A stretch of DNA of 64,000 nt. Origin: Gallionellaceae bacterium. GTDB taxonomy: Bacteria > Pseudomonadota > Gammaproteobacteria > Burkholderiales > Thiobacillaceae. The translations under genes were made by a program, and so were the position numbers. The notes beneath the pieces were generated by a model that saw only the letters and a program-made list of their open reading frames with translations, had not been told where the DNA came from and ran no database searches. The stretch lies in the NCBI GenBank assembly GCA_028714875.1, contig JAQTLN010000008.1, forward strand, positions 1 to 64,000, in the 5' to 3' direction. Of the stretch, positions 26,980 through 60,795 are shown piece after piece (positions within the stretch are counted from its first letter, which is position 1; every line of letters begins with the position of its first letter).

Positions 26980-27243
26980 TCAGCCCTTGCGCTTGAGCAC
27001 GAACTCGGCCATCGAGTTGATCGAGCCGAGATTGTCGATGTTGATTTCTTCCTGCTTCAGCGGCATCTGGTAGGCGTCTTCATACCAGACCACCAGTTCC
27101 AGGATGGCGCCGGAATCGATATAGCCGGTGGCGGGGATGATGTCGTCGTCGCCGATGTCGCTGGCGTCCATGCCCAGATTCTTCGCCAGTTCGATCACTT
27201 TGGCGCGCACGGCGGCCTTGATGGCATCACGGTCTAGGTTCAT
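26980..27243 (-). CDS. Dedicated acyl carrier protein
   Basis: An 87-residue acidic carrier protein. The phosphopantetheine attachment serine is S44 in the motif GYIDSGAILELV, which differs slightly from the fatty-acid ACP motif DSL. This suggests a specialised carrier. It is encoded directly downstream of lipoyl E2 and E1 dehydrogenase genes on the same strand, with a short palindromic repeat in the 42-base gap. The neighbourhood suggests that it accepts an acyl unit generated by the E1/E2 pair (inference, by analogy to E1/E2/ACP systems that load C2 units in naphthyridinomycin-type pathways). Confidence 0.85.
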   Translation of the reverse strand: MNLDRDAIKAAVRAKVIELAKNLGMDASDIGDDDIIPATGYIDSGAILELVVWYEDAYQMPLKQEEINIDNLGSINSMAEFVLKRKG

Positions 27244-27260
27244 TTGGGTTCCTTTGATAA

Positions 27261-27283
27261 GTAGCGCAGGCGTCTCGCCTGCA
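27261..27283. repeat. Short palindromic repeat, GTAGCGCAGGCGTCTCGCCTGC
   Basis: A half-unit of the 25293-25350 family, with an inner GCAGGCG/CGCCTGC hairpin. It lies between the E2 and ACP genes. Confidence 0.75.
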
Positions 27284-27285
27284 AT

Positions 27286-28395
27286 TTATACGGGCGGTTT
27301 CGCCAGTTCCATCAACAGCCGCGCGACATCGAAGCCGGACAGCACGCGATGGTCGTAGCTGGCGCCGAGCACCGCGCGGCCGCTGCCCTTGGGGGCGGCG
27401 TGAGCGATCATCAGCGAACAGTAGGGCGGCAGGATGGGGATGTGGCGGCTGACGTTCCAGCGCGCCATGCTGGAGAAGGCGATGGTGGCGCCGCTGGTTT
27501 CCTCGCGGCTCAGCTTGCGCTGGATGGCGTGGCGCTGCACTTCGCCGAGGTTCTCGATGAATTGCTTGGTTTCCAGGGTGTCGGCGTCGCGCACCACGGT
27601 CAGATAAAGCGTTTCTCCGGCCTGCACGGTGAAACCGAGGTTCACCGGTTGGTACTGGAAGCGCTTGCCGTTGACCACGGTGGCGTTGAGGCGGGGGCTG
27701 GCTTTCACCAGTTGCACATAGCGATAGGCCAGCAGCGGCAACAGCGGCGAGAGCATCAGTTTGTTGGCGTGGGCGTAGGCGGCCGCGTGGTCTTCCCAGG
27801 CTTTCGGGTCGTATTCCACTTCCAGATAGGTGGCGGCGGCATGGTCGCGGTGCCAGGACACGGTGATCAGCATGCCGCGTTCCTCGGCACTGAGATCGAC
27901 CAGCTGGCCCGGCACGTCGGGCAGGCTTTCCTGTGCCGAGACGGTGACGGCGGGGGTGCGGTCGCGCCGCTGGATGCCGTGCGCGGCGATGTAGCTTTCC
28001 ACATCGGCGAGCGTCAAACGCTCACCGGAGGCGGGAACCGCGCCGGCGTCGAGACCGAGTTCCTTCAAGAGGGTGCGCGCCTTGGCGGTGGGACGGGCGT
28101 TGCCGTCGCCGACGCTGGCAGCCGCCACGACCGGCGCTTCCGGCACCGGCTCGTCGATGCGCTCACCTTGCCAGAGCAGGATGGAGCCGACCGCCACCTT
28201 GTCGTCCACTTCGCACATCAGCTTGAGCACATAGCCGTCGCTTTCGGCGGCGACTTCGACGATGGCCTTGTCGGTTTCCACGTCGAGGACGATCTCGCCC
28301 TTTTCGATGTAATCACCGACGCCAACCCGGAAGGCGATGACCTGGACGATGTCATCATTGTTGTTGACGCGCGGGGCGTGAAGGGCAGATGCCAT
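27286..28395 (-). CDS. 2-oxoacid dehydrogenase E2-like acyltransferase
   Basis: A 369-residue E2 protein. Residues 1-78 form a lipoyl domain with the attachment lysine K43 (DVETDKAIVEV). Residues about 100-142 form the peripheral subunit-binding domain (RPTAKARTLLKELGLD...LTLADVESYI). Residues about 165-369 form the CAT-like catalytic domain. The catalytic histidine segment reads SYDHRVLSG instead of the usual DHRxxDG, so the conserved aspartate after the histidine is a serine. With a partner E1 and ACP but no E3 nearby, it may hand its acyl group to the ACP rather than to CoA. That is inference. Confidence 0.88.
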   Translation of the reverse strand: MASALHAPRVNNNDDIVQVIAFRVGVGDYIEKGEIVLDVETDKAIVEVAAESDGYVLKLMCEVDDKVAVGSILLWQGERIDEPVPEAPVVAAASVGDGNARPTAKARTLLKELGLDAGAVPASGERLTLADVESYIAAHGIQRRDRTPAVTVSAQESLPDVPGQLVDLSAEERGMLITVSWHRDHAAATYLEVEYDPKAWEDHAAAYAHANKLMLSPLLPLLAYRYVQLVKASPRLNATVVNGKRFQYQPVNLGFTVQAGETLYLTVVRDADTLETKQFIENLGEVQRHAIQRKLSREETSGATIAFSSMARWNVSRHIPILPPYCSLMIAHAAPKGSGRAVLGASYDHRVLSGFDVARLLMELAKPPV

Positions 28396-28412
28396 GATGT
28401 TTCCTCAGCAGC

Positions 28413-28442
28413 GTAGGGCGGAACGCGAAGCGGTTCCGCCTA
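28413..28442. repeat. Small palindrome overlapping the E1 stop codon
   Basis: AGGGCGGAACGCG and CGGTTCCGCCTA face each other around a short AAG loop. The stop codon of the E1 gene (minus strand) lies at its edge. Confidence 0.7.
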
Positions 28443-30470
28443 ATACAGGTTATCCAGGATGTCTTCGATCAGCCGGTCGGCGTCCGGCAGGATCTGCCGT
28501 TCCAGGCTGCGCGCGGAGGCGATCGGCACCGGCGGCGTGCCGATGCGGAAGGCCTGGCCTTTGTAGCCCGCTTCCAGCAGACAGGCGGCAATTTCCGCGC
28601 CGATGCCGAATTCGTGGTGCGATTCCTCGGCGATGACCACCCGCTCGCTGGCCAGCAGATGCGCCAGCAGGGTGCGGCGCGGCAGGGGTGAGAGCAGGGA
28701 GGGAACGACGATATCCACCATCAGTTCCTCCTCTTCCTCCAGGCGTTTCGCCGCCTCTTCCACCACCGGCAACATGCCGCCGTAGGTGACGATGGTCAGA
28801 TCCGCATCCGGGCGGCGGCGCAGCAGGGTGGGGAACAGGTGGGCGGCGAGGTCGTCCGGGTCGGCCGCCAGCATCTCGTAGTCGCCGCCATCCATCGTTT
28901 CGCCGTAGAGCAGCTTGTGCTCCAGGAACAGGATGGGATAGGGCCATTGGCGGGAGGCGTCGACCAGCAGGCGGGCGACGTCGTGGCGTTGGCTGCCGTA
29001 AAGGACGGTGAGTCCGGGGATCGCGGTGAAGATGTTTTCCGGGCTCTGGCTGTGGGTCGGACCATAGCCGCGGCGGCCGCCCGAGGGCGTGCGCAGGATC
29101 AGCGGCACGGTCACTTCCGGGAACACGCCGGGGAACTTCACCGCGTGGTTGTAGAGCTGGTCCATGCACAGGGAAAGAAAGTCCGCGAACATGATTTCCA
29201 GGATCGGGCGGAAACCGTCCATCGCCAGGCCGATGGCGGCGCCGGTGATGCCGGCTTCCGAGATGGGCGTGGAAATGACGCGGCCGGGGTAAGCGGTGGA
29301 GAGGCCCTGGGTGACCTTGAAGGCGCCTCCGTAGGGGTCGTGCAGGTCTTCGCCGAGTACCAGCGTTTCCGGGTAGGTGGCCAGCAGGTAATTCAGCGCG
29401 GCGTTGATGGCCAGGCGCACGCTGGTCTTGCCGGTCACGACCGGGTAGCTCGGCGCCGGACCGGCCAGTTCACTGGCGCGGTCGAAGATATGTTCCGGCG
29501 CGTCGTCGTAGACGGCTTCCGGCGAGGCGTCGGCGGCTTCCCGTACCTGTTCGATGAAGGCGGCGTTGCGCGCCTCGATGCCGGCACGCAAGGCGTCGGG
29601 GAGTCGGCGGCCCATCGCCGCCAGCGGGTCGCGCGCGCGGATGGCGGCGACCACGGCCTCGTCGCGCAGGTCGTCGCCCTTGGAATGCGGCCCCATGCGG
29701 CGGGTATCGATCACCAGGAAACCGGGGCGCTGGCTGTCGCGCACCTGTTGCACCGCCGCGGCCACCTGCTCGAAGAAATCGGGCGCGGCGTCGTCCACCC
29801 GCCAGGTTTGCAGGCCGAAGGCGGCGCCGCGCGCCTGGATGTCGCCGCCGAGGTTCTGGTGCGGTTCGGTGGTCTGCGAGATACCGTTGTTTTCCACCAC
29901 CACCAGATAGGGCACGGCCCAGACCGAGGCGAGGTTCATGGCTTCGTACAGGAGGCCCTGACCGAGGGTGCCGTCGCCGATCATGGCGGCGACGATGGCG
30001 CCGGAGCCATGCAGCTTGCGCGCCAGGGCGAGCCCGGCGCCGATGCCGGTCATGCCGCCCTGGACGCCGTTGGAATGAAAATGGCGCCAGACCAGATGCT
30101 GGCTGCCGCCGCGACCGCCGCAGGCGCCGGCCGCGCGGCCCATGATTTCCGCCACCAGGCCGACGAACTCGCCGGAATAACTGAGGAAATGGCCGTGATT
30201 GCGGTGGTTGGAAAGCGCCGCGTCCTCCGGGTGAGTCAGCGCCCGCACCACCGCCATCGCGCAGATTTCCTGGCCCAGGCAGGTGTGCGTGGTGCCGGAG
30301 ACGAAGCCGCGCGAGAACTGGTCGAGCACCAGTTGTTCGCTGGAGCGGATCAGGTGACCGTAGGCGTAGAGGTCTTCCGGCGTGGTGCCGATGATCGGCT
30401 TGCCGTGGGCATCGCGTTCGAAGCCGGGGATAGGAAGAGTGGGCATGGCGGCGGGTCGGCTGAGTGTCAT
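28440..30470 (-). CDS. Fused alpha-beta E1 2-oxoacid dehydrogenase-like protein
   Basis: A 676-residue thiamine-diphosphate enzyme with both E1 chains in one polypeptide. The alpha part (1-320) has the cofactor motif IGDGTLGQGLLYEAMNLASV and then VVENNGISQ. The beta part (about 345-676) has LVLGEDLHDPYGGAFKVTQGL, TPISEAGITGAAIGLAMDG and HHEFGIGAEIAACLLEAGYKG. Such fusions decarboxylate a 2-oxoacid and acylate the lipoyl group of E2; a ketose donor is an alternative. ATG 30446 is another possible start. It lies upstream of E2 and ACP on the same strand, divergent from a GNAT gene. Confidence 0.9.
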   Translation of the reverse strand: MTLSRPAAMPTLPIPGFERDAHGKPIIGTTPEDLYAYGHLIRSSEQLVLDQFSRGFVSGTTHTCLGQEICAMAVVRALTHPEDAALSNHRNHGHFLSYSGEFVGLVAEIMGRAAGACGGRGGSQHLVWRHFHSNGVQGGMTGIGAGLALARKLHGSGAIVAAMIGDGTLGQGLLYEAMNLASVWAVPYLVVVENNGISQTTEPHQNLGGDIQARGAAFGLQTWRVDDAAPDFFEQVAAAVQQVRDSQRPGFLVIDTRRMGPHSKGDDLRDEAVVAAIRARDPLAAMGRRLPDALRAGIEARNAAFIEQVREAADASPEAVYDDAPEHIFDRASELAGPAPSYPVVTGKTSVRLAINAALNYLLATYPETLVLGEDLHDPYGGAFKVTQGLSTAYPGRVISTPISEAGITGAAIGLAMDGFRPILEIMFADFLSLCMDQLYNHAVKFPGVFPEVTVPLILRTPSGGRRGYGPTHSQSPENIFTAIPGLTVLYGSQRHDVARLLVDASRQWPYPILFLEHKLLYGETMDGGDYEMLAADPDDLAAHLFPTLLRRRPDADLTIVTYGGMLPVVEEAAKRLEEEEELMVDIVVPSLLSPLPRRTLLAHLLASERVVIAEESHHEFGIGAEIAACLLEAGYKGQAFRIGTPPVPIASARSLERQILPDADRLIEDILDNLY

Positions 30471-30565
30471 TTGAAGCGGGCTGGCCCGCTGAGTGGCCGC
30501 GAGCTTAACCCAGTTTTCCCGGCCTTTGTGCTAACGTCCCGGCGCCCCCACAGACTCCTATTGAT

Positions 30566-31429
30566 ATGGCCCTGCCCAAGCTCGAACCCATTCGCGACGA
30601 GGATCTGCCGGCGTTTTGCGCGTTCCTGCATGCCCACCTCAACCCCAGCCACCCGGCCGATGTCTGGGCCGATGCCTTCCGCCAGGACTGGGGCGTGGAC
30701 AAGCCCAACAACGGTTTCCTGATCCGCGACGACGCTGGCCACATCGTCGGCGGCATCGGCGCCATCTACGGCGCTTATCCGGTGCGCGGCAAGATCGAAC
30801 AGTTCTGCAACATCACCAGCTGGATGGTGCTGGACGCCTATCGTACCCAGAGCATGCGCCTGGCGATGGCGGTGATTTCTCAGCCCGGCTTCCATTTCAC
30901 CGACCTGTCGCCCACCGCCGTGGTCGAGCAGTCGCTCAAGTTCCTCAAGTTCAAGCCCATGAACGAGGCGCGCACCGTGCTGTTCAACCTGCCGGCGCCG
31001 CAACAGCGCCTGCTGGGCGCGGGGGTGCTGACCGCCCCGGCGCGTATCGAAGCGGTGCTGGACGAGGCCTCGCTCAAAATTTACCAAGACCACAAGCACT
31101 TTCCCTGGCTGCGCTTTCTGGCCGTCGGCAAGGGCAGGGAACGCAGCCTGGTGGTCTACAAGCGCGCCACCCTGAAGCACCTGCCCAGCGCGGAAATCAT
31201 CGGCTTCAGCAATCCGGAAGTATTTCTGCGCTACCTGCCCATACTCGGCTGCCATTTCCTGCTTTCCGGCATGGTCACCACGCGGGTGGAATCGCGCCTG
31301 CTGCCGGGCAAGCCGGCCTGGCCGCATACCGAGCTGAAGGGCTATCGCAACCGGGTGTTCCGTAGCGACACCCTGGGTGAGGGCGACATCCAGAATCTCT
31401 ATTCGGAATATGTCGCCCTTGATCTCTAA
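30566..31429 (+). CDS. GNAT-like acyltransferase
   Basis: A 287-residue protein with an N-terminal GNAT-type fold: LEPIRDEDLPAFCAFLHAHLNP, then GFLIRDDAGHIVGGIGAIYGAY and the substrate-side segment AYRTQSMRLAMAVI. The C-terminal 130 residues are not assigned to a known domain. The typical Q/RxxGxG/A acetyl-CoA loop is not clear, so it may use another donor such as an acyl-ACP. It is divergent from the E1-E2-ACP genes and overlaps the next gene by 20 bases, tying it to a surface-glycan setting. The exact substrate is unknown. Confidence 0.65.
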   Translation: MALPKLEPIRDEDLPAFCAFLHAHLNPSHPADVWADAFRQDWGVDKPNNGFLIRDDAGHIVGGIGAIYGAYPVRGKIEQFCNITSWMVLDAYRTQSMRLAMAVISQPGFHFTDLSPTAVVEQSLKFLKFKPMNEARTVLFNLPAPQQRLLGAGVLTAPARIEAVLDEASLKIYQDHKHFPWLRFLAVGKGRERSLVVYKRATLKHLPSAEIIGFSNPEVFLRYLPILGCHFLLSGMVTTRVESRLLPGKPAWPHTELKGYRNRVFRSDTLGEGDIQNLYSEYVALDL

Positions 31430-32432
31430 CCTGTTCCCCAACGCGCGGCCTATCCAGTTGGCGGCCGACACCCGCCCCATCCTGTCGGTGGTGATCCACA
31501 CCGAGGAAGAGTTCGACTGGGACCACGCGCACGCGCGCGAGGAAGTCGGCGTCGAACACATGCGCCACATCGGCCGCGCCCAGGAAGTATTCGACGCCTT
31601 CGGTATCGTGCCCAACTACGTCATCGACTACCCCATCGCCAGCCAGCCGCTGGGTTACGAAACTCTGCGCCGCTACCAGGATGAGGGCCGCGCCCTGATC
31701 GGCGCGCATCTGCACCCCTGGGTTTCGCCGCCGCTGAGCGAGGCACTCACCCGCGCCAACACCTATCCCGGCAACCTGCCACGCGAACTGGAATACGAGA
31801 AGCTGCGTGTACTCACCGAGACCATCGCGGAAAACCTCGGCCAGCGCCCCCTCACCTACCTGGCCGGCCGCTATGGCAATGGCCCCAACAGCGCGACCAT
31901 CCTGGAACAACTGGGTTACGAAGTGGACATCAGCGTGGCGCCGCCGATCGACTACAGCGACGACGGCGGCCCGGATTACTCGGGCTACAGCGCCGAACCG
32001 TTCTGGTTCGGCGGGCAGCGCAAGTTATTGGGGCTGCCCGGCGGCGGCTGCTATGCCGGTTGGTTGAAAAGCGCCGGCGCGCCGTTCTATCGGATGCTGA
32101 CCCATCCCAACCTGCGCTGGGCGCGCCTGCCGGCCATCACCTCGCGCCTGCGCGCCTTTGAGCGCATCCGCCTGTCGCCGGAGGACTACACCCTGGCGGA
32201 AATGCGGCGCATGACCCGCTCCATGCTGAATGACGGCCAGCGCATCTTCGTGTTCAGCTTCCACTCCCCCTCGGTCCATCCCGGTTACACGCCCTACGTG
32301 CGCGACGAAGCCGGCTTGCGCCGTTTCCTGGACAAAACGCGCGCCTATTTCGAGTGGTTCATACGGGAAATGAACGGGCGGAGCATGACACCACTGGAGA
32401 TCAAGGCGCTGCTGGAAGGCGTCTCCACATAG
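31410..32432 (+). CDS. Polysaccharide deacetylase family protein (WalW-like)
   Basis: A 340-residue carbohydrate-esterase-type protein. The N-terminal metal-binding region reads SVVIHTEEEFDW and the later segment GAHLHPWVSPP supplies histidines. FRAGRYG-type sequence is seen as YLAGRYGNGPNS. The C-terminal half includes VFSFHSPSVHPGYTPYV. The acidic/His set suggests a metal-dependent hydrolase on glycans, although the classical TFDDG motif is replaced by HTEEE. The start at 31410 overlaps the GNAT gene. WalW-like proteins are found in O-antigen and capsule clusters. Confidence 0.75.
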   Translation: MSPLISNLFPNARPIQLAADTRPILSVVIHTEEEFDWDHAHAREEVGVEHMRHIGRAQEVFDAFGIVPNYVIDYPIASQPLGYETLRRYQDEGRALIGAHLHPWVSPPLSEALTRANTYPGNLPRELEYEKLRVLTETIAENLGQRPLTYLAGRYGNGPNSATILEQLGYEVDISVAPPIDYSDDGGPDYSGYSAEPFWFGGQRKLLGLPGGGCYAGWLKSAGAPFYRMLTHPNLRWARLPAITSRLRAFERIRLSPEDYTLAEMRRMTRSMLNDGQRIFVFSFHSPSVHPGYTPYVRDEAGLRRFLDKTRAYFEWFIREMNGRSMTPLEIKALLEGVST

Positions 32433-32691
32433 CAAACGACCACGAGTTTTTTGAATTCGGCGCCGGTAAATCATGCCGGTCACTTCGCACCCAGGGGTTT
32501 TCGCCTAGCGGTTTCCGGCAACGCGGCAAACGAGGCTTCGGTTAGAGTTCACCCTCGTGGGAACCAGAAACAAGGGATAGGTGGATGTTGCTACGCACCA
32601 ATATCAGGTTGACCGAGGCTGCGCTCAGGCAGCTTCGACTAGCGTTATTCCGGCAAAGTGGAACGCGGCTTCGCGTACTGGCAAAGTAAGC
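32433..32691. other. Intergenic region before the arabinose module
   Basis: About 260 bases without a supported gene. An ORF that continues in frame from 32581 into the next CDS is not protein-like. No strong hairpin or promoter was clear, though a TTGACC hexamer lies near 32610. Confidence 0.4.
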
Positions 32692-34119
32692 ATGCAAACC
32701 AATCGCCCTCTAATCGTGGATCTCGACGGCACACTCCTGCGCTCGGATATGCTCGTCGAGTCCGCGTTTGCCTTCTTTCGCCACAACCCGTTACGGGCGT
32801 TGGCGCCGCTTTCATGGTTGTTGGCCGGCAAGGCGAATCTGAAGGCGAGATTGGCGGCGGAAGTGACGCTTGATGTCACGACGCTGCCCTACGACAAGCA
32901 GGTCATCGCCTTTCTTGAACGGGAAAAAGCGGACGGTCGCATTCTGGTACTGGCCACGGCGAGCCACCAGTCTTATGCGGAAGCCATCGCCAGTCACCTT
33001 GGCCTGTTCGATCGCGTCCTGGCCACACATGGAGATACCAACCTCTCCGCCCGCGCCAAACGGGATGTCCTGGTGCGCGAATACGGGGAGAAGGGGTTCG
33101 ACTATGTGGGCAATTCACATGACGACTTGAAGGTGTGGACCTCGGCGCACAAAGCCTACCTCGCCAACCCGGAAATCGGGGTCGAAGCCGCGGCCACCCG
33201 ACTTGGCAACGTGGAGTTGGTGACACGAACACCCGCCCACCCCTGGCGCGCCTGGATGAAGCAATTGCGCTTGCACCAATGGGCCAAGAATGCGCTGCTC
33301 TTTGTTCCTTTGCTGGCGTCCCACAGGGTCGGCGAACCCGAACTCCTGCTCACTGGCCTGCTTGCCTTTCTGCTGTTCGGCCTGTGCGCTTCCAGCGTGT
33401 ACTTGCTCAACGATCTGCTCGACCTGGATGACGATCGCCAGCACGCCAGCAAGTGCTTCCGCCCGCTGGCCTCCGGCGCGGTGCCGATCAAGGCGGCCCT
33501 GCTCGTATTACCGGCGTTGCTGGTGACCGCGTTCGCCGGGGCCGCGTGGCTGTTGCCCTGGAAGTTCACCCTGGCGCTGGCGTGTTACTACACCCTGACC
33601 CTGGCTTATTCCCTGACGCTGAAACGCATCATGACGGTGGATGTCATCACCCTGGCGATGCTCTATACGGTGCGTATCGTCGCCGGCACATTCGCATTCG
33701 ATGTCAAATTGACTTTCTGGATGCTGGCTTTCTCCATGTTCCTGTTCCTCAGCCTGGCGCTGGTCAAACGCTACGCGGAATTGCGCGAGTCACGCAGCAA
33801 GGGCAATACCGAACTCACTCGCGGGCGCGGTTACTACCCGGGCGACCTGGAAATGATCTCCACACTGGGCGCGACCTCCGGCTATCTGGCCGTGATGGTC
33901 CTGGCGCTCTACATCCAGGATCTAAACACCCAGGCCCTGTATCGCCATCCTCAGGTCATCTGGCTGGCTTGTCCCTTGCTGCTCTACTGGGTCACCCGCA
34001 CCTGGATGATCACCCATCGCGGCTGGATGCACGAAGACCCCGTGGTCTTCGCCATGAAGGACCGCAACAGCCTGGTTCTTGGCGTGCTGTTCGCCGCCGT
34101 TTTCTGGTCCGCGATATGA
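32692..34119 (+). CDS. HAD phosphatase fused to UbiA-type phosphoribosyl-polyprenyl synthase
   Basis: A 475-residue fusion. Residues 1-190 form a HAD hydrolase (VDLDGTLLRSD nucleophile motif, VLATASHQSYA, FDYVGNSHDDLKVW). Residues about 200-475 form a polytopic UbiA prenyltransferase with the motif NDLLDLDDDRQHASKCFRPL, then ASGAV. That motif closely follows the NDxxDxxxDRxHxxKxxRPxAxG pattern of mycobacterial decaprenyl-phosphate phosphoribose (DPPR) synthase. The fusion could both transfer phosphoribose to polyprenyl phosphate and remove the 5-phosphate. It overlaps the DprE1-like gene start by four bases. ATG 32692 is chosen by homology. Confidence 0.87.
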   Translation: MQTNRPLIVDLDGTLLRSDMLVESAFAFFRHNPLRALAPLSWLLAGKANLKARLAAEVTLDVTTLPYDKQVIAFLEREKADGRILVLATASHQSYAEAIASHLGLFDRVLATHGDTNLSARAKRDVLVREYGEKGFDYVGNSHDDLKVWTSAHKAYLANPEIGVEAAATRLGNVELVTRTPAHPWRAWMKQLRLHQWAKNALLFVPLLASHRVGEPELLLTGLLAFLLFGLCASSVYLLNDLLDLDDDRQHASKCFRPLASGAVPIKAALLVLPALLVTAFAGAAWLLPWKFTLALACYYTLTLAYSLTLKRIMTVDVITLAMLYTVRIVAGTFAFDVKLTFWMLAFSMFLFLSLALVKRYAELRESRSKGNTELTRGRGYYPGDLEMISTLGATSGYLAVMVLALYIQDLNTQALYRHPQVIWLACPLLLYWVTRTWMITHRGWMHEDPVVFAMKDRNSLVLGVLFAAVFWSAI

Positions 34120-35432
34120 GCGATAACCTTTATTCATGGGGGCGCTACCCTCCCCATCCGCAGACAGCCATACCCTGCCACTGGCGCGCGGACATCAGGC
34201 AAGCACTGGCCGACAGGGTGTCGCGACACGGCACTCTGCTGCCCTTCGGCAATGGCCGTTCCTATGGCGACAGTTGCCTGGCGGCCAGCGACCAGGTGCT
34301 GTACATGCGCCCACTCGACCGATTCATCGCGGCCAATTGGGAAACCGGCCTGATTCGCGCCGAGGCCGGCGTCACGCTGGATGAAGTACTGGCCGTCGCC
34401 ATTCCGAAAGGCTGGTTTCTCCCGGTCACTCCGGGAACCCGATTCATCACCCTTGGCGGTGCTTTGGCCAACGATGTGCATGGCAAGAATCACCACATCA
34501 AGGGTACTTTCGGCCGCCATGTGCCCCGCTTTGGCCTGGTGCGCAGCGATCGCGACCCCCTGGTCTGCTCAACCACTGAAAACCCCGAGTTCTACGCCGC
34601 CACGATAGGGGGGCTGGGCCTGACCGGGATCATCGACTGGGTGGAACTGCAACTGGCGCCGATACGCTCCAGCCTGATCGACGCCACCAACGTGCGCTTT
34701 GGCTCCCTCGACGAGTTCTTTGCAATCTCGGCCGAGCTTGATCCCAGCCATGAATTCACCGTGTCCTGGATCGATTGCCTGGCCAGGGGGAAATCGGCTG
34801 GTCGCGGCATCTATATGGCGGGCAATCACGCTGAGGAAGGGCCCTTGGCTTACGAAGACAATGCGAAGTTGAATGTGCCGTTCACACCACCGTTTTCCGC
34901 CATCAACCAACTGTCTTTGCGGCTGTTCAATAACACTTACTACCGCGCTCATCGCGCCGGCCGGCACAACAGCCGGATAGGCTATGAACCGTTCTTCTAC
35001 CCGCTAGACCGCATCCTGAATTGGAACCGTATTTACGGGCCACGAGGGTTCCAGCAATACCAGTGCGCGATCCCGGATGCCAATGCCGCCGCCGCGACAA
35101 AGGCGCTCCTTGATGCCATCGCCGCCGCCCATAGCGGTTCCTTCCTGGCTGTGCTGAAGCGCTTTGGTGACGTGGCCTCCCCCGGGCTGCTCTCGTTCCC
35201 CTTGCCCGGGGCGACCCTGGCTCTGGATTTTCCGCAGCGGGGAAAGATCACGGCCAACCTGTTCGCGCGCCTGGACGCGATAGTGCGAGAGGCGGGGGGG
35301 CGCCAATATCCAGCCAAGGATGCGCATATGAGCGGCGCGGATTTCCGCGGCGCCTATCCGGCGTTTGAGCAAATGATCACATTATCAGACCCCGTTATTT
35401 CATCGCGATTCTGGCGGCGAGTTACCACATGA
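34116..35432 (+). CDS. DprE1-like FAD-dependent oxidase
   Basis: A 438-residue FAD-linked oxidase of the DprE1 (decaprenylphosphoryl-beta-D-ribose 2-oxidase) type. The FAD-binding segment LPFGNGRSYGDSCLA is near residue 42. It is followed by TPGTRFITLGGALANDVHGKN and GTFGRHVPRFGL, typical of VAO-family enzymes. Together with the DprE2-like reductase downstream it would epimerise polyprenyl-phospho-ribose to arabinose at C2. Start and stop overlap both neighbours by four bases, a strong sign of translational coupling. Confidence 0.88.
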   Translation: MSDNLYSWGRYPPHPQTAIPCHWRADIRQALADRVSRHGTLLPFGNGRSYGDSCLAASDQVLYMRPLDRFIAANWETGLIRAEAGVTLDEVLAVAIPKGWFLPVTPGTRFITLGGALANDVHGKNHHIKGTFGRHVPRFGLVRSDRDPLVCSTTENPEFYAATIGGLGLTGIIDWVELQLAPIRSSLIDATNVRFGSLDEFFAISAELDPSHEFTVSWIDCLARGKSAGRGIYMAGNHAEEGPLAYEDNAKLNVPFTPPFSAINQLSLRLFNNTYYRAHRAGRHNSRIGYEPFFYPLDRILNWNRIYGPRGFQQYQCAIPDANAAAATKALLDAIAAAHSGSFLAVLKRFGDVASPGLLSFPLPGATLALDFPQRGKITANLFARLDAIVREAGGRQYPAKDAHMSGADFRGAYPAFEQMITLSDPVISSRFWRRVTT

Positions 35433-37045
35433 ACATTATTAAACAATCGCTGTATATGGCCGTTCTAGGCATTGTATTGGCCGCTCTGTTTTTACCGCCA
35501 AATCTGATTGGCCTGGGCATTTTCGACGAAGGATTTATTGCAAGCGGCGCAATGCTGGTAAAAGACGGAAAGCTGCCCTACAGGGATTTCCTGTCCATGT
35601 ACGGGCCTGGGCAGTATTACCTCACGGCGGCAATATATTCCATGCTGGGAGAAAGTCTTGTTTTCGTCCATTACCTGCACGTCATAGTGCTTACGGCCTT
35701 GGGCGTAACGATATACGCACTAGCGAAACGAACAAGCACAGGTGTGGGCGGACCTTTGCTGTTGCTTCTTGGCTATGCGGGCATAGTGCTTTTCGCGCAG
35801 CCCAATGTTGGCTATCCCGCCGTAACGGCAACTGTGTTTCTACTTTTCAGCGCGCTTGCATTAGGCGGGTGTGTCGACACATTTCGTACCAATAGACTCG
35901 TACCAGCTTCATGCCTGATTGGAATGGCCGGCCTATTCCGCTGGGACTTTGGGGTATTTGGCCTGCTGGCCATTGCATTGACCCTGACCATGGTCGTGAT
36001 GCAGGAAAGGCGAAACGCGGCAGGGTCCACCTCAATTCTCTCATGGTTTATCGCCGCATTGGCCCCAGCCATTTTTATTATGGCGGCAATTTATGTTCCG
36101 TTTGTCATACTGTTTTCAGACCCGGTGCGCTGGCTTCAGGAAGGCCCGCTTTTTTCTCTTATGGAATTTTCCAAGTGGCGCAATCTGGAGTATGTCCGGC
36201 CGGCACTGTGGGCTTTGTTGAAGAGCAGCAGCCCCTTGACTTTCGAGACATCTATTCTCAAGCTCGCCTATCTGGGGATACCCGTTGTGCTGGTTATAGG
36301 CTCCATCGGCACAGCCGCCTATTATTTTGCTCGCCCACCAGAAAATAAATCAGATAGAAACAGGCTTGTTATGCTTGTTTATCTGGCATTCCTTTGCTTG
36401 TTCTTGCTCAATCAAATGAGGGTCAGGCCGACGCTCTGGCAGGGGTTTCCCGCCATGGCCGCTTCACTGCCGCTGATCGCCTTGCTGCTTGAATATTACA
36501 AGACAATAATTTCACGCAGCAAGCCACTGGCCGTGGCTCTCAACGTTACCGGATTCATTATTGGCGCGCTGCTATTCAATACGGGTCTCAATCGCCTATT
36601 TGAATCATCGGATAAACACCTTATAGCACTTAATACACCTCGCTCTTCCGGCATTCGTGTCGATCCGGAAATGAAACTTTATGTTGATATGATTAAATAT
36701 GTTATGGACAACACAAAACCTGGCGAGGCCATTTACTCCGGTGTGCGGGATCATTCACGTTTGGTCTATAACGACGCCATGCTGTATTTCCTGACCGACC
36801 GGCCGCCCGCCGATCGTTTCCTTGAGCTTGAGCCCGGCATATCAAATACCAGGAAGGCACAGGAGGAGATAATCAACTCGATCAAACAGAAAAATGTCCG
36901 TCTGATTGTATTGAGTGATATTTTGTCGGACGAGCCGAACAACACTTCAAGATCAAATGGCGTATCAATTTTGGATGAGTTTATTCGCAACAACTATCAT
37001 TTTGATAGAAGCTTTGAAGGCCGGCTGGTCTTTGTCAAAAACTGA
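35429..37045 (+). CDS. GT-C type membrane glycosyltransferase, GT39-like
   Basis: A 538-residue polytopic protein with about ten transmembrane helices. The first periplasmic loop has the GT-C acidic motif FDEGFIASGAMLVKDGKLPY followed by RDFLSMYGPGQYY, as in GT39/PMT-like enzymes. The C-terminal 100 residues form a soluble periplasmic domain (DHSRLVYNDAMLYFLTDRPP). It sits between DprE1-like and DprE2-like genes, so it may use polyprenyl-phospho-arabinose as donor, as suggested for TfpW of Pseudomonas aeruginosa pilin glycosylation (inference). AT content is higher than in the flanking genes, suggesting separate acquisition. Confidence 0.75.
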   Translation: MNIIKQSLYMAVLGIVLAALFLPPNLIGLGIFDEGFIASGAMLVKDGKLPYRDFLSMYGPGQYYLTAAIYSMLGESLVFVHYLHVIVLTALGVTIYALAKRTSTGVGGPLLLLLGYAGIVLFAQPNVGYPAVTATVFLLFSALALGGCVDTFRTNRLVPASCLIGMAGLFRWDFGVFGLLAIALTLTMVVMQERRNAAGSTSILSWFIAALAPAIFIMAAIYVPFVILFSDPVRWLQEGPLFSLMEFSKWRNLEYVRPALWALLKSSSPLTFETSILKLAYLGIPVVLVIGSIGTAAYYFARPPENKSDRNRLVMLVYLAFLCLFLLNQMRVRPTLWQGFPAMAASLPLIALLLEYYKTIISRSKPLAVALNVTGFIIGALLFNTGLNRLFESSDKHLIALNTPRSSGIRVDPEMKLYVDMIKYVMDNTKPGEAIYSGVRDHSRLVYNDAMLYFLTDRPPADRFLELEPGISNTRKAQEEIINSIKQKNVRLIVLSDILSDEPNNTSRSNGVSILDEFIRNNYHFDRSFEGRLVFVKN

Positions 37046-37060
37046 GCGTTTGATCTCACA

Positions 37061-37798
37061 ATGAAAAGAATACTCATCATAGGCGCGACTTCCGCTATTG
37101 CCACCGCATGCGCGCGGCGCTGGGCCGCGCACGAGGCCACCTTCTTCCTGGTAGGCAGAAATGCAGAAAAACTCGGTCAGGTTGCTGATGATCTGGCTGC
37201 GCGCGGAGCAACCGTATACACGCATGTGCTTGATCTGAACCACTTCGATCAACACGCGGCCACGCTGGACGCCTGTTATGCGGCGCTGGGTCAAGTCGAT
37301 GTCGCCCTTGTCGCCCATGGCACCCTACCTGACCAGAAGGCCTGCGAACAGGATGCTCAACTGGCGGTACAGGAGTTCACCAACAACGGCCTGAGCGTGA
37401 TCGCTTTGCTCACCGATCTGGCGAACCGCATGGAAGCGCGGAGATCCGGCTGCATCGCCGTGATTTCCTCAGTGGCTGGCGACCGCGGACGGCCCTCCAA
37501 CTATCTTTACGGCGCGGCCAAGGGCGCCGTGACAGACTTTTGTAGTGGCCTGCGCGGACGGTTGTTCAAGGCGGGGGTGCAAGTGCTGACCATCAAGCCT
37601 GGTTTCGTCGATACCCCCATGACCCAGGGTCTGCCTCTGCCCGGGCTGTTGCTGGCGACGCCTGACAAGGTGGCGAAGGACATCGTGCATGCAGTGGAGA
37701 AGCGGCGCGACACACTCTATACGCCCTGGTTCTGGCGGTTGATCATGCTGATCATCATCCACATTCCTGGGCTGATCTTCAAACGCCTCGGTTTGTGA
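37061..37798 (+). CDS. DprE2-like short-chain reductase
   Basis: A 245-residue SDR. The Rossmann motif is IIGATSAIATACARRW, the catalytic serine is in ISSVAGDRGR and the YxxxK motif is YGAAK. A C-terminal hydrophobic segment (FWRLIMLIIIHIPGLIF) could anchor it to the membrane, as in mycobacterial DprE2. The likely reaction is NADH-dependent reduction of polyprenylphosphoryl-2-keto-pentose to polyprenylphosphoryl-D-arabinose. Support comes from both sequence and position two genes after the DprE1-like oxidase. Confidence 0.85.
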   Translation: MKRILIIGATSAIATACARRWAAHEATFFLVGRNAEKLGQVADDLAARGATVYTHVLDLNHFDQHAATLDACYAALGQVDVALVAHGTLPDQKACEQDAQLAVQEFTNNGLSVIALLTDLANRMEARRSGCIAVISSVAGDRGRPSNYLYGAAKGAVTDFCSGLRGRLFKAGVQVLTIKPGFVDTPMTQGLPLPGLLLATPDKVAKDIVHAVEKRRDTLYTPWFWRLIMLIIIHIPGLIFKRLGL

Positions 37799-45414: not shown

Positions 45415-46292
45415 AACTCTGCCCCCGATGTTCGTCTTCGCATGACGCCGTGGGCTGGACCTGCCCTACTTGCGGCTTCGCCCCTCCCCTGCGGGGAGGA
45501 TTCCCAGCCCTGGCGCCCGAACTAGCTCATGGCGGCGCCGGTTTCCAGCCACAGGCCTTTGCGGAGCTTGCGGCCTTGGAAGCGAGCAATTTCTGGTTTC
45601 GCGCCCGCAACCGTCTCATCGTTTGGGCATTGCGTCGCCACTTTCCGCAAATGCGGCGCTACCTGGAGATCGGTTGCGGCACAGGTTACGTCCTCGCCGG
45701 CGTGGCCCAGGCCTATCCCGAGGCCTCTCTCACCGGCAGTGAGGTATTCAGCGTCGGGCTGCCCTATGCTGCGCGCCGAGTCGGGAAGGCTGAACTACTC
45801 CAGATGGACGCTCGCCGCATCCCCTATCGAGAAGAGTTCGATGCCATTGGCGCCTTCGATGTGCTGGAGCACATCGAGGAGGATGAAGTGGTGCTGTCCG
45901 AGATGCTGCGAGCAGTCCGCCCCGACGGAGGAATCGTTCTCACAGTTCCTCAACATCCCTGGCTATGGAGCAGGCAGGACGAATACGCCCGCCATGTGCG
46001 TCGCTACCGAATCGGCGAATTACGCGAAAAGGTGTTACGGGCCGGGTTCAAAGTGGAATTCGAGACCACCTTTGTCAGCCTGCTCTTGCCTGCCATGCTC
46101 GCTTCTCGCTTAGCCCAACGGAAGGCTTCTGCAGACAGTGACCCCTTGATGGAACTGCGTCTGCCAAATCTCATTAACTGGGCCTTCGAGAGCGTCATGT
46201 ACTTGGAACGACAGCTTATTAGGTTGGGAATTCGTTTCCCTGTTGGAGGCTCCCTATTGTTGATCGCTAGGAAAGCCAAGGTGGCCAGATGA
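45411..46292 (+). CDS. Class I methyltransferase with N-terminal zinc ribbon
   Basis: A 293-residue protein. The N-terminus carries two CxxC pairs (CPRCSS and CPTCG) forming a small zinc ribbon. The Rossmann SAM domain has RYLEIGCGTGYVLAGVA and AFDVLEHIEEDEVVLSEM. It ends with a hydrophobic segment. It probably methylates a glycan or lipid-linked intermediate. Confidence 0.83.
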   Translation: MKLCPRCSSSHDAVGWTCPTCGFAPPLRGGFPALAPELAHGGAGFQPQAFAELAALEASNFWFRARNRLIVWALRRHFPQMRRYLEIGCGTGYVLAGVAQAYPEASLTGSEVFSVGLPYAARRVGKAELLQMDARRIPYREEFDAIGAFDVLEHIEEDEVVLSEMLRAVRPDGGIVLTVPQHPWLWSRQDEYARHVRRYRIGELREKVLRAGFKVEFETTFVSLLLPAMLASRLAQRKASADSDPLMELRLPNLINWAFESVMYLERQLIRLGIRFPVGGSLLLIARKAKVAR

Positions 46293-47419
46293 ATATCCCC
46301 TTCAACAAGCCTTACATGACCGGCAAGGAACTCTGGTACATCGCCCAGGCGCACCACAATGGCTGGTTGGCGGGTGACGGTGGCTTTACCAAGAAATGCA
46401 ATGCCTGGCTGGAGTTACGCACCGGAGCACGGCGCGCGTTGTTGACGCATTCCTGCACGGCTGCGTTGGAGATGGCAGCGATCCTGGCTGACCTCCAACC
46501 CGGCGACGAAGTGATCATGCCTTCGTACACTTTCGTTTCCACCGCCAATGCCTTCGTCTTGCGCGGCGCCGTGCCGGTGTTCGTGGACATCCGCCCGGAC
46601 ACCCTCAACATCGACGAGACCCTGATCGAAGCGGCCATCACCGATAGAACGCGCGCCATCGTGCCGGTGCATTACGCCGGAGTGGGCTGCGAGATGGACG
46701 CCATCATGGACATCGCCGCGCGCCACAAGCTGCTGGTCATCGAGGACGCCGCGCAGGGCATCATGTCCAGCTACAAGGGCCGCCCCCTGGGCAGCATCGG
46801 CCACTTGGCCGCGCTTTCCTTCCACGAGACCAAGAACATCATCTCCGGGGAGGGCGGCGCCCTGCTGGTGAATGATCCGGAACTGGCCGAGCGAGCCGAG
46901 ATCATCCGCGAGAAGGGTACCAACCGCAGCCAATTCTTCCGCGGTCAGGTGGACAAGTACACCTGGGTGGACATCGGTTCCTCCTACCTGCCCAGCGAAC
47001 TGATCGCCGCCTTCCTGTGGGCGCAGATGGAAGAGGCGGACGCCATCACTCAATGCCGCCTCTACATCTGGCAGGCTTACCACGATGCCTTCGTCGACCT
47101 GGAACAGCGCGGCAAGGTGGTTCGCCCACGAGTGCCGACGCACTGCGAACACAACGCGCACATGTATCAGTTGCTGTTGCCCTCGCTGGAGAAGCGCACA
47201 GCCTTCATTGCCGCGCTCAAGACAGAGGGTATCGGCAGCGTCTTCCACTACGTGCCGCTGCACACGGCTCCGGCCGGACGCCACCTCGGCCGCGCGGTGG
47301 GCGAACTGCGCCATACCCTGGATATCTCCGACCGCTTGGTACGCCTGCCGCTCTGGCTGGGGCTTGAAAAATATCAAATCGAGGTCATCCGCCAAGTAAT
47401 CGCCGCCACAGAATGGTAG
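46289..47419 (+). CDS. wecE: dTDP-4-amino-4,6-dideoxygalactose transaminase
   Basis: A DegT/DnrJ/EryC1 PLP aminotransferase of 376 residues with the WecE/RffA pattern: FNKPYMTGKELWYIAQAHHN at the N-terminus and the PLP lysine K182 in SFHETKNIISGEGGAL. It converts dTDP-4-keto-6-deoxyglucose to the 4-amino sugar, the step before WecD-type N-acetylation. The start overlaps the methyltransferase stop by four bases. The following 226 bases hold a MITE. Confidence 0.93.
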   Translation: MNIPFNKPYMTGKELWYIAQAHHNGWLAGDGGFTKKCNAWLELRTGARRALLTHSCTAALEMAAILADLQPGDEVIMPSYTFVSTANAFVLRGAVPVFVDIRPDTLNIDETLIEAAITDRTRAIVPVHYAGVGCEMDAIMDIAARHKLLVIEDAAQGIMSSYKGRPLGSIGHLAALSFHETKNIISGEGGALLVNDPELAERAEIIREKGTNRSQFFRGQVDKYTWVDIGSSYLPSELIAAFLWAQMEEADAITQCRLYIWQAYHDAFVDLEQRGKVVRPRVPTHCEHNAHMYQLLLPSLEKRTAFIAALKTEGIGSVFHYVPLHTAPAGRHLGRAVGELRHTLDISDRLVRLPLWLGLEKYQIEVIRQVIAATEW

Positions 47420-50336: not shown

Positions 50337-51461
50337 CTACGCGAGCTCCTCAATGTCAAAAATCCGCCGATGCTCGCGGATGGCGTAACGATCGGTCATA
50401 CCGGCGATGTAATCGGCGACCGCGCGATACGGGCCGTGGTCGGCGCGGGCGCGGTGTTCCGGTGGCATCAGGCGTGGTTCGTTGCTGAATGCCTGAAACA
50501 GTTCGCGTAGCAGGCGCTGCGCCTTTTCGCTCATGCGCACCACCTTGTAATGGCGATAAAGGTTCTGGAACAGGAAGCGCTTCAACTCGCGATGCTGCTC
50601 CAGGACATCCGGACTGAACCCGGCCAGCGGCGGGCAAAGGCGCACGTCATCCAGACTTTGTGGCAGGTGCCGCGCGATGTTGTGGCGAGTCTGTTCGAGT
50701 AGGTCCACCACCAGGGTGTTGATCATGCGGCGCACGGTTTCATGAATCATGCGGCGGTCGTTGAGATTGGGATAGAGGCCCCGCACGGTTTTCAGGTGCC
50801 GCGCGAAGATGTCCACCTGCTCCAGTTGCTCGACGCTGATCAGGCCGGAACGCAAGCCGTCGTCGACGTCATGGTTGTTGTAGGCGATCTCGTCGGCCAG
50901 GTTGGTGACCTGCGCTTCCAGCGAGGGCTGCCGGCCTTCGATGAAGCGCCGGCCCACGTCGCCCAGCTTTTCCGCGTTTTTGACTGAACAGTGTTTGAGG
51001 ATGCCTTCGCGCGCTTCGAAGGTGAGATTGAGGCCCTCGAATTCAGCATATTTCTGCTCCAGTTCATCGACCACACGCAGCGATTGCAGGTTGTGTTCGA
51101 AACCGCCATGTTCCTTCATGCACTCGTTGAGCACGTCCTGGCCGACATGGCCGAACGGCGTATGACCAAGGTCGTGGGCAAGGGCCAGCGTTTCCGTGAG
51201 GTCTTCGTCCAGCCCCAACATGCGCGCCAAAGTTCGGCCGATCTGGGCGACTTCCAGGCTGTGGGTGAGGCGGGTGCGGAACAAGTCACCCTCGTGGTTC
51301 ACGAATACCTGGGTCTTGTACTCCAGGCGGCGAAAGGCGGTGGAATGCACGATGCGGTCGCGATCACGTTGATATTCGGATCGTGGCGCGGCCGCCGGTT
51401 CCGGATGGCGACGGCCGCGAGTGCTGGCGGAGAGCGCGGCATAAAGGGCGAGGTCGGTCAT
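50337..51461 (-). CDS. dgt: dGTPase-like HD-domain triphosphohydrolase
   Basis: A 374-residue HD-domain protein of the deoxyguanosinetriphosphate triphosphohydrolase type. The HD metal motifs are [13 protein letters not shown] and [18 protein letters not shown]. The N-terminus ([26 protein letters not shown]) is characteristic. It hydrolyses dNTPs to deoxynucleosides and triphosphate. It lies downstream of aroB on the same strand, a common betaproteobacterial pair. The start at 51461 was chosen over an upstream frame by homology. Confidence 0.93.
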
Positions 51462-51555
51462 GTAGGCGTATCCGATCGGTATTGCAATAGCCCGGACAAA
51501 CCGCGGCTTGTTGGGGGGCGATTTCCGTGGCAACGACTGGACACGGACAGGCTTG

Positions 51556-55777: not shown

Positions 55778-55908
55778 AATTTGATTGATTTTACTGAGTC
55801 TCGGAGCCTGACGTAAGCAATGCCCGATTTGTAGTGAGAGCACTTGCCCCCGGCGCTGGCAAAATGGCCGGGCTATCCGAAGTAAGCATAAGTTGGCAAC
55901 TTCATAGA

Positions 55909-57159
55909 ATGAGCACACCCGACGTTCGCGCGATAGCGTTTTACCTCCCTCAGTACCACCCTGTACCAGAAAATGACCAATGGTGGGGAAAAGGCTTTAC
56001 TGAGTGGCGTAATGTTGCCAAGGCGCGGCCTCTGTTTTCCGGCCATTATCAACCGCACATGCCGGCGGACCTGGGGTTCTATGACCTGCGCTTGGCCGAT
56101 GTGCGTGAAGAGCAAGCAGCACTTGCGCGCCACTATGGTATTCATGGTTTTTGCTATTATCACTATTGGTTCAATGGCCGGCGCATTCTTGAACGTCCTT
56201 TCAATGAGGTATTAGCGTCAGGCAAGCCGGATTTTCCTTTTTGCCTTTGCTGGGCAAATGAGAACTGGACCAGGATCTGGGATGGCGGAGCGAAGAATGT
56301 TCTGCTTGAACAAAAATACAGTGAAGCGGATGACTTGTCGCATATCGAGAGCCTGATTCCAGCCTTCTTCGATGATCGCTATATACGTGTAGATGGAAAA
56401 CCTCTTTTTCTTGTTTACCGAACAGGGCTGCTGCCGTCGCCCCTTAGAACGACGCAGGTATGGCGTGAAGCGGCACGTAAAGCCGGCATCGGGGAGCTAT
56501 TTCTCGTTCGTGTGGAGAGTCACGGTGACAGCACCAACCCAAGTGAAATCGGATTTGATGCCTCGGTCGATTTCGCGCCTTTCAACGGCCTGCCATCACC
56601 ACTTCTGCGTGGGCCTATAAGTGCCCTCTCGGCTAGACTGGGGTTCCTGCCAACTGCCTTCATTGATCACCAAATTGTAGATTATCAGTCGGTGGCCAGC
56701 ATACTGATGAGCAGGCCCATTCCTGACTTCAAGCGTTTTTATTGTGTGACGCCAGGCTGGGATAATACTTCCAGACGAAAGCAGGGTGGTGTTGTTTTGC
56801 TGGATTCGACGCCTAAACGCTATGAGCGCTGGCTGCACGACGCCGTTAGAAAGACGCGACAGCAATTCAAGTCTGAAGAAAATATAGTGTTTATCAATGC
56901 TTGGAACGAATGGGCAGAGGGTAACCACATGGAACCTGACATGAAATGGGGAAGAGCATTTCTTGAAGCAACCTTGCGGGTTATTAGTACATCAACGTCG
57001 AATGAGAGTTTAACGAGAATGGATGCTCAGACTCCTGTTGAGCAGACTGGGATCCGGCAGGCCTACTGGAAAATACTAGGACGACTTCGCGCTAGCCGGG
57101 CAAGGCGGTTTCTCAAATACTTTCGGGTTCCTTGTAGAACAAGAATTGGCAATGAATAA
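55909..57159 (+). CDS. WbsX-type glycosyltransferase / GH99-like protein (first of three)
   Basis: A 416-residue protein of the WbsX/GH99-like family of O-antigen clusters. Landmarks are AFYLPQYHPVPENDQWWGKG then FTEW, HGFCYYHYWFNGRRILERPF, FPFCLCWANENWTRIWDGG and FINAWNEWAEGNHMEPDMKW. Whether these proteins synthesise or cleave glycosidic bonds is unsettled. The two homologues at 57152 and 60796 share all motifs. A stretch of about 60 residues at the C-terminus (after residue 360) is not family-like. Confidence 0.8.
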   Translation: MSTPDVRAIAFYLPQYHPVPENDQWWGKGFTEWRNVAKARPLFSGHYQPHMPADLGFYDLRLADVREEQAALARHYGIHGFCYYHYWFNGRRILERPFNEVLASGKPDFPFCLCWANENWTRIWDGGAKNVLLEQKYSEADDLSHIESLIPAFFDDRYIRVDGKPLFLVYRTGLLPSPLRTTQVWREAARKAGIGELFLVRVESHGDSTNPSEIGFDASVDFAPFNGLPSPLLRGPISALSARLGFLPTAFIDHQIVDYQSVASILMSRPIPDFKRFYCVTPGWDNTSRRKQGGVVLLDSTPKRYERWLHDAVRKTRQQFKSEENIVFINAWNEWAEGNHMEPDMKWGRAFLEATLRVISTSTSNESLTRMDAQTPVEQTGIRQAYWKILGRLRASRARRFLKYFRVPCRTRIGNE

Positions 57160-58300
57160 TAATTACGAACTTCCGCACCTTTACGGAACTATTCACCCGA
57201 TTGGAACATCAGAGCCAAGGCTGGCACGGCCTAGGATCATCGCTTTGTATCTCCCTCAGTATCATCCTGTTCCAGAAAATGATGAATGGTGGGGAACAGG
57301 CTTTACCGAGTGGACAAATACGGCAAAAGCCAGGCCGATGTACAAAGGGCATTACCAGCCGCATATCCCTGCCGACCTTGGATTTTATGATCTTCGTGTT
57401 GCAGAATCACGCAACGCACAAGCTGAGATGGCCCACAAGCACGGCATAGAGGCGTTCTGCTACTACCATTATTGGTTTGCCGGAAAGCGCCTACTTGAAC
57501 TGCCTTTCAATAAGGTGCTCGAATCAGGCCAGCCCGATTTTCCATTCTGCTTGTGTTGGGCCAACCAGAGCTGGACGGGGATTTGGCATGGAGCGCCAAA
57601 CAGAATGCTGGTGGAGCAGACCTACCCAGGAATGGACGATCATAAGCGCCATTTCGATTACTTGTTACCCGCATTCAAAGACAAGCGCTATCTCTGTATC
57701 GACGGCAAGCCTATCTTTGTTGTTTACAATCCGACGCAACTCCCGGATGCGTTACAAGTTACCGACTACTGGCGCGATCTGGCTGCACAAGCAGGATTAC
57801 CCGGTCTTTTTCTTATTGCAGAGCACGCATCACCTGAATGGGATCCCAAGAAATCTGGCTTTGACGCAGCCGTCAACGTTCGCTTGCCACCGCGACGTCG
57901 AGACATGGCGGAAAAAGTGTCATGGAAAAATCCACTACGAAAGCTGATGAATTGGTACTCCGACTGGCGCCACCTTCCGACAATTCACCAATACAAGGAC
58001 GTGACTGACAGTCTGGTATCTGAGCCTGTAGCTGGAATCGAGAGCTACCCTTGCGTCATTCCGAATTGGGACAATACACCGCGCAGCGGAGAGAATGGTA
58101 TGGTGCTGCACGGATCAACGCCAGAATTGTTCAGGCATCACTTACGCAAGGCGCTACACAGGGTGGCGGAGCTACCCGCCGAACGTCGACTGGTATTTGT
58201 GAAATCATGGAACGAATGGGCGGAAGGGAATCATCTTGAACCTGACTTGCGTTTCGGACATGGTTACCTTGACGTTATCAAAGAGGAGACCTTATCTTGA
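57152..58300 (+). CDS. WbsX-type glycosyltransferase / GH99-like protein (second of three)
   Basis: A 382-residue paralogue of its neighbour, with ALYLPQYHPVPENDEWWGTG, FCYYHYWFAGKRLLELPF, FPFCLCWANQSWTGIWHG and FVKSWNEWAEGNHLEPDLRF. It begins eight bases before the previous stop. Divergence from the first copy is enough to suggest different linkage specificities. ATG 57152 is used; an in-frame TTG at 57146 is an alternative. Confidence 0.8.
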   Translation: MNNNYELPHLYGTIHPIGTSEPRLARPRIIALYLPQYHPVPENDEWWGTGFTEWTNTAKARPMYKGHYQPHIPADLGFYDLRVAESRNAQAEMAHKHGIEAFCYYHYWFAGKRLLELPFNKVLESGQPDFPFCLCWANQSWTGIWHGAPNRMLVEQTYPGMDDHKRHFDYLLPAFKDKRYLCIDGKPIFVVYNPTQLPDALQVTDYWRDLAAQAGLPGLFLIAEHASPEWDPKKSGFDAAVNVRLPPRRRDMAEKVSWKNPLRKLMNWYSDWRHLPTIHQYKDVTDSLVSEPVAGIESYPCVIPNWDNTPRSGENGMVLHGSTPELFRHHLRKALHRVAELPAERRLVFVKSWNEWAEGNHLEPDLRFGHGYLDVIKEETLS

Positions 58301-60791: not shown

Positions 60792-60795
60792 CCAA

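Follow-up and report, generated by a model that had tools for sequence, protein, structure and literature searches.

The loading of a carrier protein by pyruvate dehydrogenase (PDH)-like E1 and E2 components is already known from the naphthyridinomycin, scleric acid and pepteridine pathways. In the quinocarcin pathway, QncN/QncL/QncM reportedly produce a glycolicacyl unit and attach it; for SclQ1-4 of the scleric acid pathway, homology has led to the proposal that they take a glycolyl unit from a ketose phosphate (PMC6335953). For the pepteridine E2-T-C of Photorhabdus (plu2796), the carrier is thought to be primed instead of coenzyme A (CoA), with the acyl group coming from 2-oxoacids and the carrier serine being needed (PMC5384830). 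A set of comparable genes lies within a 64,000-nucleotide stretch (the window) of a Gallionellaceae bacterium contig (JAQTLN010000008.1), where E1, E2 and acyl carrier protein (ACP) genes are divergent from genes for a GNAT-type acyltransferase and a deacetylase-like protein. On balance it seems probable that these five genes form an acyl-exchange module, in which E1 and E2 would charge the ACP, the deacetylase would expose an amine, and the GNAT would transfer the acyl group. The features concerned are:

28440..30470, minus strand: fused alpha-beta, thiamine diphosphate (ThDP)-dependent E1, 676 amino acids
27286..28395, minus strand: lipoyl E2 with 2-oxoacid_dh core, 369 amino acids, from family matches and alignment
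28267..28269, minus strand: codon of the E2 lipoyl lysine K43, invariant in 14 aligned E2s (coordinates derived from the frame)
27334..27357, minus strand: E2 motif YDHRVLSG, residues 347-354, the usual Asp replaced by Ser (coordinates derived from the frame)
26980..27243, minus strand: dedicated ACP, 87 amino acids, from the open reading frame (ORF) list and alignment
27112..27114, minus strand: codon of the ACP phosphopantetheine serine S44, invariant in 14 aligned ACPs (coordinates derived from the frame)
30471..30565, no strand: divergent intergenic stretch of 95 nucleotides between E1 and GNAT
30566..31429, plus strand: predicted tandem-GNAT-fold acyltransferase, 287 amino acids, from a model of pLDDT 87.4, Foldseek and VIA-align matches, and linkage
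31377..32432, plus strand: CE4/NodB-fold deacetylase-like protein, at most 351 amino acids, with the true start probably inside the ORF

An earlier examination of the letters of this DNA alone (the sequence-only reading) had described a fused E1, a lipoyl E2 with SYDHRVLSG and an ACP, all in the same direction and without a lipoamide dehydrogenase (E3), and this description is confirmed by the ORFs and family matches. E1_dh, Transket_pyr and Transketolase_C are all above cut-off in the E1, as are the lipoyl and 2-oxoacid_dh domains in the E2, which has DHRVLSG rather than the catalytic DHRxxDG and retains the catalytic His. Measured against a PDH-type complex, the set has the ThDP E1 and lacks the DHRxxDG form of E2, an E3 of its own and an E3-binding domain; measured against the glycolyl-ACP cassettes, it has E1, lipoyl E2 and ACP without E3 and lacks a nonribosomal peptide synthetase (NRPS) partner. 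Identification of the ACP as “ACP for OlsHI” (NF052616) was rejected at 34.1 bits against a 130-bit cut-off, and “acyl carrier” is absent from the passages of an ornithine-lipid paper (PMC12493201). A search for sigma-70-type promoters between 26700 and 32700 found none, and a scan of viral contigs with the window E2 found no relative.

QncN-L-M, NapB-C-D and SclQ1-4 likewise combine a ThDP E1, a lipoyl E2 and a small ACP, and the tables consulted name no E3 for them (PMC6335953, PMC7570522); this is a likeness of description and gene order. Those glycolyl cassettes feed an NRPS line and have a split E1, whereas the window has a fused E1 and, with no NRPS partner, a GNAT and a deacetylase. The pepteridine set, compared by description, resembles it in pairing E2 with a carrier, in having an amide product and in the absence of E3, but has a condensation domain and a pteridine acceptor where the window has a separate ACP, a GNAT and a deacetylase (PMC5384830). 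RenH of the renieramycin pathway falls in a different E1 clade from the window.

In an E1 tree of 100 rows, the window falls in a clade of 17 with SH-aLRT support of 100; 80 of 573 relatives were kept from a scan of the genome collection with the E1 alignment, and the tree omits L080 and L150 because of their length and includes the partial L134 (loci are given by L numbers). The order E1-E2-ACP is found in all 13 clade loci that are readable beyond E1, the contigs of the other four stopping at or shortly past E1. Its named members include Rhodocyclus tenuis, an Azonexaceae bacterium, an Accumulibacter, a Burkholderiales bacterium, Hoeflea poritis and three Acidobacteria, a membership that suggests horizontal spread. 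A larger E1 group of 27 rows (support 91) unites the window with the actinobacterial set L177, whose order (KAS III-like, ACP, E1 alpha, E1 beta, E2) is of the scleric acid type, as judged by gene order. The window E2 as sole query gave strong matches in 3 of 200 genomes of the order, all in one genus; the next-best genome, G148, has an ordinary E2. L007, the top E2 match outside the genus, was set aside as an ordinary E2 with FDHRVVDG. Within the genus, the E2 is present in 12 of 23 genomes.

The acid of the DHRxxDG motif is lost in 12 of 13 clade E2s (six Ser, three Asn, two His, one Gly). Loss of this acid was considered as a mark of ACP use and rejected, as it tracks the clade: among ACP-linked E2s outside it, the acid is lost in L067 and L068 and retained in four others. 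The loss is a mark of the clade and no proof that ACP is the acceptor. In L095 (12007-13048), the E2 spans two reading frames that overlap on a metagenome contig, which is either an assembly error or a real break.

The check for a consistent lack of E3 suggested in the sequence-only reading came out in its favor: ten clade loci have a flank of 6 kb or more, the requirement for all 5-kb neighborhood counts here unless stated, and none of the ten has an E3 within 5 kb of E1. The E3_binding segment of the window E2 is sub-threshold (13.6 versus 23.7 bits), and E3_binding appears at E<=1 in 4 of the 14 aligned E2s; among 99 proteins neighboring outgroup E1s there are seven E3_binding and eight 2-oxoacid_dh matches. 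In the genome, TIGR01350 (E3) has 13 matches, one of them above cut-off, on contig C36 beside an ordinary E2. The reason that had been offered for the missing E3, that no oxidation takes place and E3 is thus not needed, does not hold. Because the product is an acyl thioester, its formation on the lipoyl group and transfer leave a dihydrolipoyl-E2 that needs re-oxidation, for 2-oxoacid and ketose donors alike. The pepteridine paper agrees: the set described there also has no E3, and its authors write that E3 “is required for lipoamide regeneration” and probably comes from the host (PMC5384830). On both grounds, chemistry and this precedent, the real absence of E3 is rejected as a sign of a non-oxidative reaction.

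The divergent GNAT and deacetylase, proposed earlier as partners of the loading genes, are real ones: in L067, L068 and L205, which represent three genomes from a single genus of another class, E1, E2, an S-adenosylmethionine (SAM) methyltransferase, ACP, GNAT and deacetylase follow one another in one direction. The GNAT family also adjoins E1 in relatives from the window's genus and in L084, L086 and L087. Six genus genomes were covered by both searches; four of them have E2 as well as GNAT, and two have neither. The model of the 287-amino-acid protein has a predicted GNAT fold and that of the deacetylase-like protein a predicted NodB-type barrel. The latter has TEE at 42-44 and HLH at 111-113, invariant in eight aligned sequences and different from TFDDG and HSxxH, the textbook NodB/CE4 motifs. 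In the acidobacterial L092 and L134, the protein encoded after the ACP looks deacetylase-like by eye, with no Pfam match above cut-off; the “NodB” matches of these two in the neighborhood count are self-matches, and they are NodB-like by eye only. Downstream of the ACP in L095 come an Antibiotic_NAT protein and a DegT-like gene. The names used for other genes of the relatives (other GNATs, ABC transporters, argH, pirin and the like) are by eye unless a family match is given. The SAM methyltransferase family recurs beside E1-E2-ACP in L067 (11501-12427), L068, L093, L095, L124 and L205, and perhaps methylates the carrier-bound acyl group.

The strongest single pointer to a predicted order of E2, ACP and amine is a natural fusion in L147 (11953-14139), where one chain of 728 amino acids comprises Biotin_lipoyl, 2-oxoacid_dh, an ACP-like stretch and Antibiotic_NAT. 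The ACP-like stretch scores 32 bits with a hidden Markov model built for this analysis and is unseen by Pfam at E<=0.05. The fusion adjoins Formyl_trans_N, Polysacc_deac_1 and NeuB genes.

Many E1s of this family that lie beyond the clade precede a lipoyl domain joined to a hexapeptide acyltransferase. In some of these a PglD N-terminal domain is present, and DegT, NeuB or CMP-sugar genes are often found at such loci. Such lipoyl-hexapeptide (PglD-like) fusions stand directly beside E1 in L071 (8206-9309), L108 (11980-13008), L128 (7826-8905), L081 (6994-9216), L099 (11904-13505) and L159 (2176-3675). They would perhaps N-acylate sugars straight from the lipoyl group. Acyltransferases of GNAT, AAC(3) or hexapeptide type lie at most 5 kb from E1 in 10 of 10 clade loci, 35 of 49 other family loci and 0 of 15 outgroup loci, a count that favors the family over the outgroup, as its queries were all drawn from family loci; without the loci that supplied queries, the figures are 7 of 7 for the clade and 29 of 43 for the rest of the family. 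A query-independent Pfam count found Hexapep in 13 of 113 neighbor proteins of 15 family loci (every third of the 49). Among the 99 neighbors at the 15 outgroup loci, no GNAT, AAC(3) or hexapeptide acyltransferase appears in the 25 of 187 families shown, a number at which single ones could hide.

From the observed gene set, conservation, partners and folds we infer the following reactions, of which the first two are the best supported and the last the least. The fused ThDP E1 would draw an acyl or ketol unit from either a 2-oxoacid or a ketose and reductively acylate the lipoyl arm of E2, which would then pass the acyl group not to CoA but to the ACP phosphopantetheine; the latter transfer is proposed because of the conserved triplet, the natural fusion of E2, ACP and N-acyltransferase, and the published relatives. 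Re-oxidation of the dihydrolipoyl-E2 would fall to the one lipoamide dehydrogenase of the cell, whose gene lies elsewhere. The NodB-like protein would strip off N-acetyl or a similar group, and the GNAT would move the ACP-borne acyl onto the freed amine, roles that are suggested by fold and linkage. The target would most likely be an amino sugar, either in a surface glycan or in a lipid-linked one, and the acyl group is probably small. Glycolyl is a first guess by analogy, because the Qnc and Scl sets handle glycolyl and L177, with its scleric-type gene order, shares the 27-row E1 group.

Several observations weigh against this proposal. The window ACP scores below the Pfam cut-off, and the deacetylase-like protein has no Pfam match at E<=0.01 and a model of modest confidence. 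The E2 motif acid is retained in the clade member L093, and outside the clade in the ACP-linked E2s of L066, L104, L124 and L139. The GNAT family is distributed more widely than the E1, being found in 39 of 398 genomes of a phylum sample and 6 of 399 of an order sample. Among 30 further GNAT stretches (31 of the 54 matches listed, five others having been covered previously and the 18 weakest left out), 15 have none of a carrier, a deacetylase or an FkbH-type protein nearby. Finally, in L065 the same five genes stand between argH/FKBP-like and pirin/YceI-like genes (by eye), with no glycan flank.

The other 15 of these GNAT stretches have at least one of the three: a carrier (at least 40 bits) in seven, a deacetylase in seven and an FkbH-type protein in four. 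The idea that the GNAT is invariably beside a carrier protein is rejected by this survey. Judging from these sequences, the GNAT and deacetylase may be an older pair to which different loaders were added: E1/E2 in the window, FkbH in L184, an NRPS-like protein in L185 and ligase_PEP_1 in L213. FkbH would by analogy load glyceryl, likewise a small hydroxyacyl group. In L184 (9584-14102), part of a complete genome, flagellar genes (by eye) surround an ACP, an FkbH-like protein, a member of the GNAT family and, by eye, a MaoC-like protein, perhaps for flagellar modification.

Alternatively, the same E1/E2/ACP loader could serve a lipid, a small metabolite or a protein amine, for example in the exosortase-A-associated pathway (TIGR03098-TIGR03101). 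We regard this as less likely. In its favor, the module is embedded in that gene set in L088 (13474-16105), L089, L090, L091 and L096, where two alpha/beta hydrolases stand between the ACP and the GNAT. Both L088 hydrolases score above the TIGR03100 and TIGR03101 cut-offs, and their counterparts in the other four loci resemble them; ligase_PEP_1 is above cut-off beside the L089 set. L213 (4970-8982) has the same GNAT family accompanied by an ACP and the exosortase-A-associated ligase (ligase_PEP_1) and decarboxylase (dCO2ase_PEP1), without E1, and no glycan genes flank the L065 set. The window module, however, has no such hydrolases or other exosortase-A-associated genes adjacent; exosortase itself is above cut-off in the genome, but hydr1_PEP is below it genome-wide, with a best match of 33.4 versus 168.45 bits (the search did not include TIGR03101). 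Sugars are also what the deacetylase partner and the NeuB and formyltransferase neighbors of L147 point to.

It is improbable that the E1 and E2 are ordinary enzymes making acyl-CoA for catabolism or supply, with the ACP, GNAT and deacetylase adjacent by chance or for separate duties. Both are clear members of the 2-oxoacid dehydrogenase families, the E2 keeps its catalytic His, and many operons of this type depend on one E3 from another locus; but the invariable ACP of the readable clade loci, the recurrence of the partners in distant genomes, the loss of the motif acid in all but one clade E2, the weak E3-binding segment and the L147 fusion all argue against it. Least probable is a direct addition of a two-carbon branch to a ketosugar by the E1, in the style of avilamycin and paulomycin, with E2 and ACP merely assisting. 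PDH-like AviB1/AviB2 and Pau11/Pau12 do occur in sugar-branching clusters (PMC4425429), and there are sugar genes near the window set. Theirs is carbon-carbon branching without E2, ACP or GNAT, however: the account in PMC4425429 names E1 alpha and beta and other enzymes, with no lipoyl E2 or ACP, while here both are conserved and the partner is an acyltransferase.

For the preferred acyl exchange on a surface glycan, the glycan neighborhood itself varies between relatives. The location “beside surface-glycan genes” claimed by the sequence-only reading is borne out for the window, L064 and L086, which are near ABC-transporter O-antigen genes (by eye), and not for L065. Its broader suggestion of an E1/E2/ACP loader for glycan decoration fares similarly: the E3-less set has a GNAT and a deacetylase as linked partners and its E1 groups with L177, but the link to glycans is variable. 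One gene of the window's O-antigen-type locus may be relevant to the acceptor:

46289..47419, plus strand: WecE-type aminotransferase, NF008687 and TIGR02379 above cut-off

It suggests that a 4-amino sugar is made nearby, a possible source of acceptor, although it stands outside the conserved module. Elsewhere in the window, a UbiA/HAD protein, a DprE1-like oxidase and a DprE2-like reductase in a row (32581-37798) resemble the decaprenylphosphoryl-arabinose route of mycobacteria, although this genome is a Gram-negative one; scores with the DprE1 and DprE2 models are below cut-off. Three WbsX-type glycosyltransferases occur in one locus (55834-57159, 57146-58300 and 60628-61872). A dGTP triphosphohydrolase above cut-off lies in the glycan locus (50337-51533), and a similar gene is near the L064 module (by eye).

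No account of an E1/E2/ACP set feeding a GNAT/deacetylase pair or sugar acyltransferases was found in the open-access papers searched (most subscription papers fall outside that scope), nor did listings from them show anything relevant on lipoyl/hexapeptide acyltransferases in O-antigen clusters or exosortase-associated hydrolase/ACP sets. A broad use of PDH machinery may be tentatively proposed, in which acyl groups that ThDP E1s load onto lipoyl domains bypass CoA and reach surface-sugar amines by way of an ACP or a lipoyl-PglD/hexapeptide fusion, the window adding the exchange by deacetylase and then acyl transfer. The natural lipoyl-acyltransferase fusions make the idea testable using single proteins. 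If true, it would account for the recurring E1-E2-ACP-GNAT(-deacetylase) block across several phyla, and would offer a first way into the biochemistry of the hydrolases and ligase of the exosortase-A-associated set, which are hypothetical equivalogs in NCBIfam. It would also mean that bacterial glycans can receive N-acyl groups from a source independent of CoA, tying a complex of central metabolism to surface chemistry.

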